NCBI GenBank assembly: GCA_018303505.1
Contig: JAGVYA010000005.1
Coordinates: 1 to 37,358 of the forward strand
Source: Candidatus Woesearchaeota archaeon
GTDB lineage: Archaea; Nanobdellota; Nanobdellia; Woesearchaeales; GW2011-AR4
Direction of reading: 5' to 3'
DNA length: 37,358 nucleotides
This document shows positions 3,515 to 35,166 of the stretch, piece by piece. A program made the translations under genes and the position numbers. The notes under the pieces are model-generated. The model worked only from the letters and a program-made list of their open reading frames with translations. It searched no databases and was not told the origin of the DNA. Every line of letters starts with the position of its first letter. Positions within the stretch are counted from its first letter, which is position 1.

Positions 3515-3619
3515 AATAAATACAAAAAATTCGCCGATTAAAATTCAAAAAACACGAGAGCGACTTTTTGCAGTATAGGTGAAGAAAGTAAACCGCTTTT
3601 GATGGTTATTGAATAAATA

Positions 3620-3686
3620 GGCGAGGCAAAATTTAGTGGCAGGCAAATTTTGCCGAGCAGTAAATATTGTCGCAAAGCGACGGATT
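3620..3686. repeat. Palindromic element, copy A (right half only)
   Basis: The sequence holds GGCAAAATTT, a loop with TGGCAG, then AAATTTTGCC (a perfect 10-bp stem) flanked by GCGAG and GAGCAGTAAATATT. It ends with the tip hairpin GTCGC-AAA-GCGAC and the terminus CGGATT. The mirror-image left arm expected between 3530 and 3615 is not recognisable, so this is a half element. It sits in the rnp2-psmA spacer, upstream of the psmA ribosome-binding site AGGAGGT at 3721-3727. Confidence 0.75.
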
Positions 3687-3737: not shown

Positions 3738-4490
3738 ATGCAACAGCCAATGCCGCATCAGTTGATGGGTTACGACAGGGCAATAACAATGTTCAGCCCT
3801 GACGGAAGATTATTGCAAGTAGAGTATGCTAAAAAAACAGTAAGGCAAGGCTCAACAGCTATTGGAATGGTATGCTCTGATGGAGTTCTGCTGGTAGCGG
3901 ACAAGAGAGTTGTAGATTCTTTAGTTGTGCCAGAGAGCGTTGAAAAGATATGGCAGATTGACGAGCATATTGGAGCAGCAGCATCAGGGATATTAAGTGA
4001 TGCAAGGGTTCTTATTGACAGGGCGCAATTAAAAGCGCAGCAAAACAGGGTAACTTATGATTCAGAGATAGATACTCTAACAATTGTAAAAGATATGTGC
4101 GACTTAAAGCAGGTATGCACCCAGAGCGGCGGCTTAAGGCCGTTTGGAGTGTCAATTTTAGTTGCTGGCATTGATGACCATACCCCCCGATTGTTCGAAA
4201 CAGACCCAATAGGAATTTTTTTTCAGTACAGGGCAACTGCAATTGGCGAAGGAGAGATAGAAGTAGAAGAAATTTTACACAATGATTACAAGCCTAATTT
4301 GACAATAGAGGAAGGCTTGAAATTGTCTTTAAAGGCATTAAAAAAAGTTTTAGGGGAAAATTTCAAAATTGAAAGAATTGATGCAGCATATATTAATACA
4401 ACAGAGAAAAAATTTAGAAGGCTGATGAAATCAAGGATAGAGAAGACAGCATCGGAATTGAAAGAGGATAAAAAGCCTGCAAAGAAATGA
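3738..4490 (+). CDS. psmA: Proteasome subunit alpha
   Basis: A 250-residue protein. The N-terminal signature GYDRAITMFSPDGRLLQVEYA is the alpha-subunit gate region; the later DKRV and SGGLRPFGVSILVAG segments match the family. Alpha subunits form the outer rings of the 20S proteasome, gate substrate entry and dock the ATPase. They have no catalytic Thr. An AGGAGGT ribosome-binding site lies 10 bases upstream of the start. The C-terminal tail is Lys-rich (KKPAKK) and lacks an obvious extra domain. The beta subunit gene is not in the window. It is followed after 8 bases by SBDS, the usual archaeal order. Confidence 0.97.
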   Translation: MQQPMPHQLMGYDRAITMFSPDGRLLQVEYAKKTVRQGSTAIGMVCSDGVLLVADKRVVDSLVVPESVEKIWQIDEHIGAAASGILSDARVLIDRAQLKAQQNRVTYDSEIDTLTIVKDMCDLKQVCTQSGGLRPFGVSILVAGIDDHTPRLFETDPIGIFFQYRATAIGEGEIEVEEILHNDYKPNLTIEEGLKLSLKALKKVLGENFKIERIDAAYINTTEKKFRRLMKSRIEKTASELKEDKKPAKK

Positions 4491-8094: not shown

Positions 8095-8222
8095 AATCCG
8101 CCTTCGGCAATAATTAGTAAATGCTCCACATTTATCGGGTATTCATTGAATCATTTCGAGGCGAAAATTCAATGGTGGGAGAATTTTCGCCGAGTGTAAA
8201 ATTTGTCGCGAAGCGACGGATT
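8095..8222. repeat. Palindromic element, copy B
   Basis: It starts AATCCG with tip GCCTTCGGC, and ends with tip GTCGC-GAA-GCGAC and CGGATT. The right arm is intact: GGCGAAAATTC, a loop with ATGGTGGGA, then GAATTTTCGCC. The left stem-loop has decayed. It fills most of the 8027-8295 gap, which has no gene. A TATA-like TTTTTATAG at 8265-8273 lies between it and the next start codon. Confidence 0.8.
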
Positions 8223-10422: not shown

Positions 10423-10824
10423 TTATTTCCTTCCAAAATAAAAGAACTTTTCAATGCTGACATCTTTTGGCTCGTAATCTCCATATCTTGGCCTTACAGG
10501 CTCTGCATTCTTTGCAGCTCCGCTTTGGAAGTTTTCATGCCTTTCATCTTCAGGCCTGCAGTCGATGATTTTGACTTCTTTTTTTGGTGCATGCGCCTCA
10601 ATGCGGCTTTCTTGCTCTGGCTCTACGAGTGTTCTTTGAACAGTCTTGCTCTGCTGCGGCTGGAACTGCAGCCTTGAAATCTGGCTTTTAAGGGAATTTA
10701 TTTCACCGGCTTGTGAGCAAGCAGTCTCTTTTAGGCTATTAATTTCCTGCTGAAGCTTTTTTGTTGCCATTTCTATGATTAATTCAAACCTCTTTTGAGT
10801 GAAAACATCAAATTGCTGCTCCAT
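10423..10824 (-). CDS. Coiled-coil protein downstream of ftsZ
   Basis: A 133-residue protein starting MEQQFDVFTQKRFELIIEM. ATG 10824 is chosen because AAGGATT lies 7 to 10 bases upstream; the longer frame starts with TTG. Residues about 15-52 form a heptad-like coiled coil (KKLQQEINSLKETACSQAGEINSLKSQISRL). The remainder is polar and probably disordered, ending in FFYFGRK. No enzymatic motif. It is the last gene of an ftsZ - repeat protein - coiled-coil series, but an element copy separates it from the others, so co-transcription is uncertain. Confidence 0.75.
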   Translation of the reverse strand: MEQQFDVFTQKRFELIIEMATKKLQQEINSLKETACSQAGEINSLKSQISRLQFQPQQSKTVQRTLVEPEQESRIEAHAPKKEVKIIDCRPEDERHENFQSGAAKNAEPVRPRYGDYEPKDVSIEKFFYFGRK

Positions 10825-10867
10825 TTTTATCAATCCTTTTTAATTGAATTTTTATTATTTATTCTTC

Positions 10868-11008
10868 AATCCGTCGCTATGCGACAATATTTACTGCTCG
10901 GTTTTGCTTTTCTACCATATCGCAAAACCTCGCCAATATATTGGCAATGCATTCCGCCCAATGCGAGGGCGGCTATCTTATTGTAATTTGCGAAGCAAAT
11001 TACGGATT
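10868..11008. repeat. Palindromic element, copy C
   Basis: It starts AATCCG with tip GTCGC-TAT-GCGAC and ends with a tip AATTTGC-GAA-GCAAATT and CGGATT. The left stem-loop is intact: GGTTTTGC, a loop with TTCTACCATA, then GCAAAACC. Read on the minus strand, the left arm is almost the same as the right half of copy A, including the linker GAGCAGTAAATATT. The right stem-loop differs (GCCCAATGCGAGGGC). It fills the gap between the coiled-coil and the repeat-protein genes. Confidence 0.8.
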
Positions 11009-19788: not shown

Positions 19789-19937
19789 TGGGCCCACGGA
19801 GATTTGAACTCCAGACCTCCGGCTGGCCTAGAGAATTCTTGGATTCTTTACTTTGATACCAAAAATCTCGTATAAGACTTGCGTGTTCAAAGATACTTTT
19901 TGAACTCGGCGCTCTAACCAGCCTGAGCTATGGGCCC
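19789..19937 (-). tRNA. Probable tRNA-Ile (UAU) with two introns (29/30 and 37/38)
   Basis: The minus strand begins GGGCCCATAGCTCAG and ends CTCCGTGGGCCC-A; acceptor stem, D-arm GCTC/GAGC and T-arm TGGAG-TTCAAAT-CTCCG are all normal. The anticodon arm is rebuilt only if two introns are removed: 28 bases at 19879-19906 (inside the 5' stem strand, after CCG) and 46 bases at 19825-19870 (canonical site). The result is CCGGT-CTTATAA-GCCGG, anticodon TAT (window 19872-19874), and a 75-base tRNA. The first intron contains GTTCAAA/TTTGAAC, flanked by GCG/CGC, like a bulge-helix-bulge motif. Amino acid identity rests on this model. Confidence 0.72.
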
Positions 19938-20012: not shown

Positions 20013-20151
20013 AATCTGTCTGCGACGCATTTTAGTGCTCGGCTTTCGCTTCCTGCCAGTGAGTTGTGAGGCTCGTGAGATAAATCGAGGCAAAAATTCA
20101 ATGGCAGAAGAATTTTTGCCGAGTGTAGAATTTGTTGCGAAGCAACGGATT
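20013..20151. repeat. Palindromic element, copy D
   Basis: It starts AATCTG (one change from AATCCG) and ends with tip GTTGC-GAA-GCAAC and CGGATT. The right stem GGCAAAAATTC/GAATTTTTGCC encloses ATGGCAGAA. The left arm keeps AGTGCTCGGC and TTCCTGCCA but its stem is decayed, and the centre holds TGAGTTGTGAGGCTCGTGAGA. It lies between the tRNA-Ile and a small minus-strand gene. Confidence 0.8.
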
Positions 20152-21889: not shown

Positions 21890-22135
21890 AATCCGCCTTC
21901 GGCATATTTTAGTGCTCGGCGTTACTTTTCTTCCATATCGTAACGCCTCGCCTATACATTATTACAATGTATTCGAGGCGAAAAATTAGTGGCAGGCAAT
22001 TTTTCGCCGAGTGTAAATGTTGTTGCGAAGTCCTAAAAAATTCCGTAGGAATTTTTTGGACACCAAAAATGCCCGACTTGTGAGCGAGTTCTCTTCGCTC
22101 ACCCGCATGCCACGCATTTTTTAGTGCAACGGATT
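21890..22135. repeat. Palindromic element, copy E, with nested insertion
   Basis: The left arm starts AATCCG, tip GCCTTCGGC, then stem GGCGTTAC/GTAACGCC around TTCTTCCATA. The centre is TATACATTATTACAATGTA. The right stem GGCGAAAAATT/AATTTTTCGCC encloses AGTGGCAGGC. The right tip is GTTGCGAAG followed by 96 foreign bases and then CAACGGATT. Removing the insert restores GTTGC-GAA-GCAAC exactly. It is the largest copy and fills the gap between the pilin-like gene and tpiA. Confidence 0.87.
22031..22126. mobile_element. 96-bp insert inside element copy E
   Basis: The block interrupts the right tip hairpin of copy E with no visible target duplication. It contains a hairpin TCC-TAAAAAATTCC-GTA-GGAATTTTTT-GGA and then a GAG-type hairpin, GTGAGCGA...TCGCTCAC. 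Its ends, TCCTAAAAAA and TTTTTTAGTG, are near inverted repeats. It codes for no protein. Confidence 0.6.
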
Positions 22136-23610: not shown

Positions 23611-24024
23611 TTAATTGTCCATTACAATAACCTTCTTTTCCTCTTCAATGGCTTTTTTAATGGCATCTTCAATAGAGTCAATATCCTTCTTTCTTTCAGC
23701 CTTTTTTATTTCATATCTTTTTTCATTAAATACCTGCTTTGCTGCCATGAACGTAACCTCGTCTTCCTTCATTTCCGGTTTTTCATTTTTTCCTTCTTCC
23801 AAATCTTCGAAAATACTTGTTTTGTCTTTATCGTCCTTTTCCTTTTCATCCTGCTTCTTTATGTAATCAGAAGAAATATCCTTTTCTTTTTGGCCATATT
23901 TTTGCTCATTGTATTTTCTATCATTTTTTTTTCCATCGGAGAGCGTGCTGCTGTATTTTGAAGAATTATAGCTGCTTGAATGAATGTTCCACTTGTCCTC
24001 GTCCCATAACTTTATCTTGTACAT
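23611..24024 (-). CDS. Highly charged, probably disordered protein
   Basis: A 137-residue protein with a Lys/Glu/Asp-rich composition throughout, few hydrophobics, and a Ser/Tyr/Lys-rich start (NIHSSSYNSSKYSSTLSDGKK). The C-terminal 40 residues could form a helix. No domain is recognised. The ATG at 24024 precedes it directly; its stop is 6 bases from the DUF1461 start, so co-expression is likely. Codon and amino acid composition fit a real gene, but function cannot be guessed. Confidence 0.65.
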   Translation of the reverse strand: MYKIKLWDEDKWNIHSSSYNSSKYSSTLSDGKKNDRKYNEQKYGQKEKDISSDYIKKQDEKEKDDKDKTSIFEDLEEGKNEKPEMKEDEVTFMAAKQVFNEKRYEIKKAERKKDIDSIEDAIKKAIEEEKKVIVMDN

Positions 24025-24058: not shown

Positions 24059-24165
24059 AATCCGTTGCCTTCGGCAACAATATTTTGTGCTCGGCTTCGT
24101 TTTCCTGCCATTGAGTTGAACGCGAGCGTGCGAGCGTTCTCGCACGCAACTCACTCAGCCTCGCC
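24059..24165. repeat. Palindromic element, copy F (left half only)
   Basis: It starts AATCCG with tip GTTGCC-TTC-GGCAAC, linker AATATTTTGTG, then CTCGGC and the loop motif TTTTCCTGCCA, and reaches GCCTCGCC at 24158-24165. The stem between holds a GAG-type hairpin (24126-24147). No right arm follows. Confidence 0.7.
24126..24147. repeat. GAG-type hairpin inside copy F
   Basis: GCGTGCGAG-CGTT-CTCGCACGC is a perfect 9-bp stem. GTTG and CAAC flank it at 24115-24118 and 24147-24150. It sits where the stem-loop of the parent element should be, so it looks like a nested insertion or replacement. Confidence 0.6.
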
Positions 24166-24329
24166 TATAAATTTATTAAAACATTAAAAGCGGGTTACTT
24201 TCTTAGTGCTTACTTCCAAAGGTCGCTCTCGTTTTACTTCAAAATTTTTAATTTTGAAGTTCCCAAAAATCCTTTAGATTTTTTAGGATGTTGATTTTAT
24301 TTTTCATTGAAATTTTATAGCGTGTTGTA
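24166..24329. other. Non-coding spacer with perfect AT hairpin
   Basis: No gene is seen between copy F and the 52-residue gene. A perfect 11-bp stem, ACTTCAAAATT-TTT-AATTTTGAAGT, lies at 24236-24260, and a looser AAAAATC/GATTTTT stem at 24266-24284. The first could be a terminator-like or element-derived structure. Confidence 0.45.
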
Positions 24330-25589: not shown

Positions 25590-25669
25590 GCCTATTGCTC
25601 CTATTTTGCTGCTTATATATAAAGCTTGTGAAAAAAGGTAATTATTTAGCTTTATGAAGTAAATTTTTA

Positions 25670-25832
25670 AATCCGTGCTTCGCACAAAAAAATATTGTGC
25701 TCGGCTTTTTTTGTCTGCCACTAAAAAAAGCCAAGCCTATTTATTCATTAATTATTGAATAAATTCGAGGCAAAAATTAGTGGCAAGACAATTTTTGCCG
25801 AGTGTAAATTTTGTTAGCGAAGCGAACGGATT
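25670..25832. repeat. Palindromic element, copy G (most complete)
   Basis: It starts AATCCG, tip GTGC-TTC-GCAC; left stem GGCTTTTTTT, loop with TCTGCCACT, then AAAAAAAGCC. The centre is TATTTATTCATTAATTATTGAATAAAT. The right stem GGCAAAAATT/AATTTTTGCC encloses AGTGGCAAGAC; right tip GTTAGCGAAGCGAAC, then CGGATT. It lies just upstream of the zinc-ribbon/NYN operon. Both arms and both tips can still pair. The rest of the 25590-25911 gap has no gene. Confidence 0.88.
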
Positions 25833-25911
25833 AATATATCCCTTCAGGATACTAAAGTATTACGAAAAAAGCAATAAAAGAAAAATTTGAAATAAAAAAT
25901 CTGGAATTATC

Positions 25912-26173: not shown

Positions 26174-26239
26174 TCCAAGAAAATCCAGTGAGATGCGAGT
26201 GAGCTCGCGAACTCGCTCACATTCGACTGATTTTCTGGA
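26174..26239. repeat. GAG-type hairpin repeat, copy 2
   Basis: TCCAAGAAAATC at the left pairs with GATTTTCTGGA at the right, and GAGTGAGCTCGC with GCGAACTCGCTC in the centre. It closely matches the copies at 2919-2989 and 35097-35150 in the flanking GAAAATC/GATTTTC arms and the central GAG repeat. Confidence 0.65.
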
Positions 26240-26867: not shown

Positions 26868-26933
26868 TCGTACACCTCTTTTCCCAGCAAATAATGCGAT
26901 AATTTATTTCATTTATGATACTACTTTATAAAG

Positions 26934-26981
26934 TTTTCTAAAACTGAGGTTTTCTAAAACTGAAGTTTTCTAAAACTGAAG
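26934..26981 (+). repeat. Three tandem 16-bp palindromic repeats upstream of rpl10e
   Basis: The unit TTTTCTAAAACTGA(A/G)G occurs three times head to tail. Each joined unit contains AGTTTT-CT-AAAACT, a palindrome. They lie just upstream of a TATA-like GATTTAAAAATAAC (26995-27008) and 46 bases before the L10e start codon. They may be binding sites for a regulator of ribosomal protein L10e. Confidence 0.7.
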
Positions 26982-27026
26982 TTTAAACAGCAAAGATTTA
27001 AAAATAACCTAAAATTTCATATTAAC

Positions 27027-35089: not shown

Positions 35090-35096
35090 AAAACCC

Positions 35097-35150
35097 CGAA
35101 AATCAGACAGTTGTGAGCGAGTGAACTCACTCGCATTTCACTGATTTTCG
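35097..35150. repeat. GAG-type hairpin repeat, copy 3
   Basis: CGAAAATCAG pairs perfectly with CTGATTTTCG, and the centre GCGAGTG-AACT-CACTCGC makes an inner stem. The closest relative is the copy at 2919-2989. Located between the four-helix membrane protein and the AbrB/PIN pair. Confidence 0.65.
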
Positions 35151-35166
35151 ATGTTATTGATTCTGC

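Follow-up and report, generated by a model that had tools for sequence, protein, structure and literature searches.

Small dispersed repeats such as ERIC, NEMIS/Correia and RUP are palindromic sequences of 100-200 nt that are scattered over genomes, are often transcribed together with their neighbors and in some cases are flanked by a target duplication. RU repeats are likewise palindromic, dispersed and 100-200 nt long (PMC2759123). Members of the IS66 family have ends starting with GTAA and produce 8-bp repeats (PMC11946415, PMC12898284). The miniature transposons (MITEs) with ends of this type (IS66/ISBst12 group) are short and non-coding. REPINs and REP-BIME mosaics comprise inverted hairpin units, about 100 per genome, which occur between genes as singles or in mosaics with other motifs (PMC3116915). 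Riboswitches and ribosomal-protein leader RNAs are structured, covarying elements located upstream of start codons.

The element analyzed here, present in a 37,358-nt stretch of DNA (the window) from a groundwater member of Candidatus Woesearchaeota, tiny archaea in which gene regulation is, to our knowledge, almost unknown, shares features with all of these systems. It is short and non-coding, with ends beginning with GTAA and an 8-bp target duplication, as in IS66-type MITEs, but its interior consists of two covarying hairpin arms instead of a deleted transposase gene, and no matching autonomous element was found. It resembles REPINs in its inverted hairpin units, copy number, mosaics and intergenic location; however, its arms are larger, with two hairpins each, its complete copies carry terminal repeats and 8-bp duplications, it is biased to 5' leaders, and its own genome lacks a Y1/RAYT gene. 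Likeness to ERIC, NEMIS/Correia, RUP and RU is by description; the element differs from them in being archaeal and in having interchangeable left modules. Unlike riboswitches and ribosomal-protein leaders, the arms are not tied to one pathway, are gained and lost at orthologs, and have no counterpart in Rfam, where gathering and permissive thresholds yielded only tRNA and weak chance matches. A literature search found no description of such an element in Woesearchaeota, in agreement with the first-pass annotation, which knew of no described archaeal family with this layout.

At 25670-25832 lies the core of a miniature transposon that spans 226 bp (25638-25863) and has no gene predicted inside. 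The first-pass annotation had recognized this core and correctly listed its CGGATT termini, tip hairpin, linker, larger stem-loop, AT-rich center and mirror arm; its span stopped short of the terminal inverted repeats and the target duplication, and the two arms, inverted as it had described, are not the same but belong to types b and a. The complete form, of about 225 bp, comprises imperfect terminal inverted repeats starting with GTAAT, the inverted, non-identical arms a and b, and a short AT-rich center. In the window copy, the left repeat (GTAATTATTTAGCTTTATGAAG, 25638..25659, + strand) likewise begins with GTAAT and matches the reverse complement of the right end at 12 of the first 18 positions; the right repeat (25842..25863) reads GTAATACTTTAGTATCCTGAAG on the - strand. 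Between them lie the b arm (25670..25736, - strand), composed of tip hairpin, linker and large hairpin, reading leftward and scoring 65.4 bits with covariance model R1 and 62.4 bits with R2, and its mirror, the a arm (25765..25832, + strand; 71.8 bits with R1), with the linker GAGTGTAAA. An arm of about 66 nt contains a stem-loop of 9-10 bp with TGGCAG in the loop, CCGAGCA or CCGAGTG, an A/T linker, the tip hairpin and CGGATT; b arms contain CCGAGCACTAAA and a arms CCGAGTGTAAA. In b arms, conservation is higher in the loops, the linkers and the ends than in the stems, and hence something reads them; the conserved loop and end motifs are TGGCAG, CCGAGCA and CGGATT.

The unit is flanked by an exact 8-bp duplication, GAAAAAAG, whose left (25630..25637) and right (25864..25871) copies are identical. 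The same ends recur in this genome at C30:25123 and C17:29237, and the ends of the complete MITE are of the GTAATNNTTNAGNNTNNTGAAG type. Between the window copy and the C30 copy, homology stops abruptly at the same outer points and the flanks are unrelated; the C30 copy has an exact 8-bp duplication of its own, TATTTCTA, and a copy with the same ends in another species (G018 C113) has GTTTTTTG on both sides. These three copies are independent insertions. Terminal repeats with an exact duplication, found again at other targets, support for this copy the earlier suggestion of a MITE. The third copy with ends in the own genome, at C17, has no intact duplication, which is decayed or absent also at two G019 copies, and at L255, in another genus, 7 of the 8 positions match. 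Terminal repeats are carried by only three copies in the own genome and by several in relatives, and a scan of 161 arm flanks was bimodal, with full ends at a few copies and no trace of them at the rest. In a search for target duplications at copies without terminal repeats, the best scores did not exceed those of a control in which random positions reached 24 as well, so the duplication claim rests on the shared ends and the different flanks of the copies compared.

Complete copies have the GTAA start and 8-bp duplication of IS66 elements; neither an IS66-type (PF03050) nor a Y1 transposase was found in the own genome, which is only 88% complete. IS66-type transposases are present in two members of the genus, G015 and G017, but the end found for the G017 element, GTAACTATAAAGTCCC, differs from the MITE ends. 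No IS66 transposase with matching ends was recovered, and a pattern search of 20 draft genomes detected no transposase between matching ends. Judging from the GTAA start and the 8-bp duplication, the family is plausibly moved by an IS66-type transposase.

All seven places in the window reported in the first-pass annotation are real, with arms at each of them. Two of them, taken earlier for halves, are not truncated but consist of a b arm joined to a different module, c: at 3621..3686 (+ strand, 85.4 bits with R1), the b arm lies 51 nt before the ATG at 3738 and has as left partner a c module (CGAGAGCGACTTTT..AAAGTAAACCGCTTTT; 3551..3605, + strand, 72.1 bits with model R3, with covariation), and at 24059..24125 (- strand, 47.6 bits with R2), a b arm with a palindromic insert next to its loop is separated by 34 nt from the beginning of gene 23611-24024 downstream and is accompanied by a c module at 24181..24235 (- strand, 64.0 bits with R3). 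Another b arm, at 10868..10933 (- strand, 82.2 bits with R1), precedes the - strand gene 10423-10833, at a distance of 34 nt from its ATG at 10833; its left partner at 10934..11008 (- strand) is module d, composed of a tip hairpin and a GATAGCCGCCC..GGGCGG hairpin, which also stands beside b at C45 and, as a variant, at C21. The remaining places hold a arms together with b arms of varying quality: a degenerate b-like left half at 8095..8150 (- strand, only 9.2 bits with R1) with an a arm at 8156..8222 (+ strand, 72.3 bits with R1); a b arm with an altered large stem at 20013..20076 (- strand, 13.6 bits with R1 and 26 bits with R2) with an a arm at 20085..20151 (+ strand, 71.6 bits with R1); and a b arm at 21890..21951 (- strand, 67.6 bits with R1) with an a arm at 21973..22135 (+ strand; R2 match and sequence reading), in which other palindromes, together about 96 nt long, interrupt the tip hairpin.

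Other palindromes occur in the window as well. A second family, rich in GTGAGCGAG/CTCGCTCAC motifs, is present at 2927-2982, 26180-26235 and 35092-35155, and similar palindromes sit in or beside arm loops at 24107-24160, C30:25181 and C60. A third hairpin type (TCGATAAATC..GATTTTCGATCATG..) is inserted in several arms at or near one and the same ATATG/GCAG loop site (C69:4663-4724, C11:589 and C66:79228), and at 22030-22130 of the window a tip hairpin is split by other palindromes.

A genome-wide search with the covariance model built from the seven window arms identified about 98 arm units in the draft genome of 1,305,313 bases, a lower estimate, as 150 candidates were scored; most of these matches have E below 1e-7, and some of the weakest, e.g., C18:884, are likely chance matches. 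Further copies beyond the seven, on which the first-pass annotation had made its reading depend, are thus abundant, and its remark that the copies lie between genes holds for nearly all of them. In the seven-arm window alignment, compensatory changes were found in 8 of 14 pairs, and both the number of paired cells and the covariation score exceeded all 500 shuffles and every slid control. The excess is larger with 92 arms, for which 258 changes on both sides of a pair were counted versus 86 expected. All 20 genomes of the genus that were examined contain arms, as do 9 of the 15 other family members, and none were found among the rest of the 147 genomes sampled. A degenerate arm pattern searched over 84,980 species matched ten records, all from Candidatus Woesearchaeota, which agrees with the archaeal, DPANN affiliation assumed at first, and matched no viral contig.

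Among all copies read, almost every element contains a b arm, and many consist of b only; otherwise its partner is an a arm, module c, module d or a gene-specific leader. The copies without terminal repeats, which are the majority, consist of a single b arm or of b linked to a further module. Module c shows covariation of its own in an alignment of 29 sequences and was also found without a detected b arm; at three of eight such loci inspected, a short or b-like sequence follows c. Similarity is 0.84 among a arms versus 0.70-0.73 among b arms, as expected if the a-b form were younger. Several further leader sequences are associated with these modules. At L278 and L282, c is joined to a conserved stretch, AATGGCAGGAATTAATATTGCGTCATGTGGG, which shares an ATGGCAG motif with the b loop, and a leader carrying this stretch is also found upstream of gene g2 in L199, L201 and L208. 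Hairpins with GTTCCGYCAGTTGACGGCGGGAAACTTTTT form another left partner of b at L100, L140, L219 and L220, and G014 and G008 carry an inverted relative in their S15 leaders. A conserved leader (GCCCGAGTTCnATAAGAGCGTTTCTAGGGTT..TTCTCGTGGC) precedes b at L061, L242 and L128, and in the latter two the downstream gene encodes ribosomal protein S13 (Pfam was run on L128 only).

Gene context was derived from a home-made gene predictor, whose start calls are approximate. Arms are located mostly before genes and not after them. In single elements, b points to a downstream gene on its own strand in 58 of 72 cases, and single b arms have genes on both sides in their own direction far more often than in the reverse one (++ 48 vs. 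-- 9, p=1.5e-7). For other genomes, elements with high model scores were chosen, a selection that may have biased details, though not obviously the orientation; pairs show the same bias in the own genome and not in other genomes. Distances from b to the start codon peak at 28-50 nt, and the spacer is A-rich, with 58% A in the last 30 nt versus 38% for other genes. Decayed terminal repeats were considered as the source of these spacers at ordinary copies and rejected, with no trace above shuffles beyond the few copies carrying terminal repeats. Replacement of a Shine-Dalgarno sequence by the b arm was also rejected, as motifs resembling it are uncommon to the same degree whether an arm is present (17%) or absent (13%). 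Downstream genes checked with Pfam include S15, S13, S2, S19e, L11, Hsp70, GyrB and CTP synthase. The orientation and position bias towards start codons suggests a role of b arms in leaders.

Occupied and empty sites among relatives point to turnover. The S15 locus, the clearest case, comprises a TATA-like box, a conserved leader hairpin, b, about 35 nt and ATG; the arm is present in 13 of 18 genomes of the genus, G005, G010 and G001 have the same leader and no arm, and G014 and G008 have another insert. At PyrG (CTP synthase), 8 of 19 genomes have the arm, and comparison of the insert with empty relatives revealed no clean duplication. At genes whose orthologs are 85-95% identical, the arm was found in 4 of 18 (gene 23611-24024) and in 1 of 15 (gene 3738-4490), the arm at 3621..3686 being absent upstream of all 14 other full-length orthologs. 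Comparing arms at one gene across species gave similarities no higher than comparing arms from different genes (S15, 0.685; PyrG, 0.739; S15 vs. PyrG, 0.675; within genome, 0.706). This pattern fits repeated gain or conversion, although it could equally arise from saturation, as the stems vary freely; sequence similarity did not show inheritance of individual copies at S15 and PyrG, which stem saturation could hide.

We regard as reasonably probable a non-autonomous MITE family whose arms are acquired and retained in 5' leaders and whose mover is plausibly of the IS66 type; the family is real and active-looking, with unusual structured arms and many leader-resident derivatives. The element lacks a transposase of its own and is probably moved in trans by a DDE transposase, its GTAA start and the 8 bp of target duplicated on insertion fitting the IS66 group. 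A DDE transposase needs no internal hairpins, and conservation of the arms therefore requires a separate cause. The arms, above all b, recur without ends in leaders, alone or with other modules, and are gained and lost between species; copies in leaders are retained mainly with b towards the start codon and about 30-50 A-rich nt left in front. A b arm so placed may be tolerated, or may serve the mRNA leader as a hairpin cassette, possibly shielding or stabilizing the message or keeping the ribosome landing site open. Terminal repeats are found in a minority of copies, so the majority could have another history; copies without ends may have come about by loss of the ends, by recombination or through a second mover. 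A wider reading, in which modules a, b, c, d and others would be dealt among the messages of the whole archaeal family as a mobile modular 5'-leader system, spread at least partly by transposition and acting on S15, S13, CTP synthase and other housekeeping genes by controlling or insulating their translation, is rather unlikely. A vertically inherited family of cis-regulatory leader RNAs, merely captured by transposon copies, would account for the strand and position bias, the A-rich unstructured spacer, the covariation of a conserved structure, the modular combination with other leader hairpins and the presence of b at the same genes in several species (S15, S13, PyrG, DnaK, GyrB, CoaD and S19e among them); we consider it unlikely, as empty sites are frequent among close relatives and sharing a gene does not make copies from different species more similar to each other. 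Moreover, arm stems contain 27 G-U pairs versus 14 A-C mismatches, a difference that is not significant (p=0.06) and is favored by the scoring model itself, against more than 1,900 Watson-Crick pairs. Functional RNA usually tolerates more wobble, and with so few wobble pairs the constraint may act on DNA hairpins, or on both DNA and RNA; since the wobble counts do not decide between them, the leader function is something that we infer.

Movement of inverted hairpin arms as single-stranded DNA by a HUH (Y1/RAYT-like) transposase acting in trans, with single arms as defunct remnants, corresponds to the REP-like option of the first-pass annotation. Of the 22 close pairs, 21 are divergent ('-+'), with a gap of 18-34 nt in most, as in a REPIN doublet, but the a arm is missing from most elements. 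Loops, linkers and CGGATT ends more conserved than stems, as if a protein read the hairpins, and almost purely Watson-Crick covariation would suit such a mechanism, and Y1 transposases are encoded by 9 of the 20 genus members and by G020, which belongs to the same family; however, none was found in the own genome, G001, G006, G013, G017 or G019, each with at least 20 scored arms. Exact 8-bp duplications and long terminal repeats are not HUH signatures, single b arms are not clearly more diverged than paired ones (0.70-0.72 vs. 0.73), and we find this mechanism quite improbable. DNA palindromes without a function, either selfish or neutral, whose symmetry is maintained by template switching in replication, would explain why stems turn over fast and stay Watson-Crick, and why other palindromes were inserted in or next to loops (window 22030-22130, C30, C69), but such a process leaves the conserved TGGCAG, CCGAGCA and CGGATT, the target duplications and the strand bias unexplained and is very hard to credit. 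Unrelated terminators with chance similarity, which the first-pass annotation had named as the finding that would overturn it, would likewise be hairpins between genes; with 98 genome matches to the seven-sequence model, loops conserved in sequence and a location before genes, they can practically be dismissed. On the preferred reading, that of a MITE family with leader-resident arms, the element may be altering the untranslated leaders of host mRNAs. Its defined ends, together with the S15 and PyrG sites that are filled in some relatives and empty in others, make it testable whether a small transposon can distribute structured leaders over a genome.

Some other features deserve mention. The hairpin leader (GAAAGATAGCnCGGTGAAAGCTnGGCTATGCTGGA) that follows a TATA-like box precedes S15 in this family and in most other families of the order sampled (L288-L314, upstream of rpsO; in the own genome, C10:5700-5770, L074). 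It shows compensatory changes, has no Rfam match and is a candidate archaeal S15 autoregulatory leader. In the window, a tRNA gene on the - strand (19789-19937) spans 149 nt versus the 71 positions of the model, which suggests an intron, and a short tandem repeat with 16-nt units (AAGTTTTCTAAAACTG) is located at 26931-26984.
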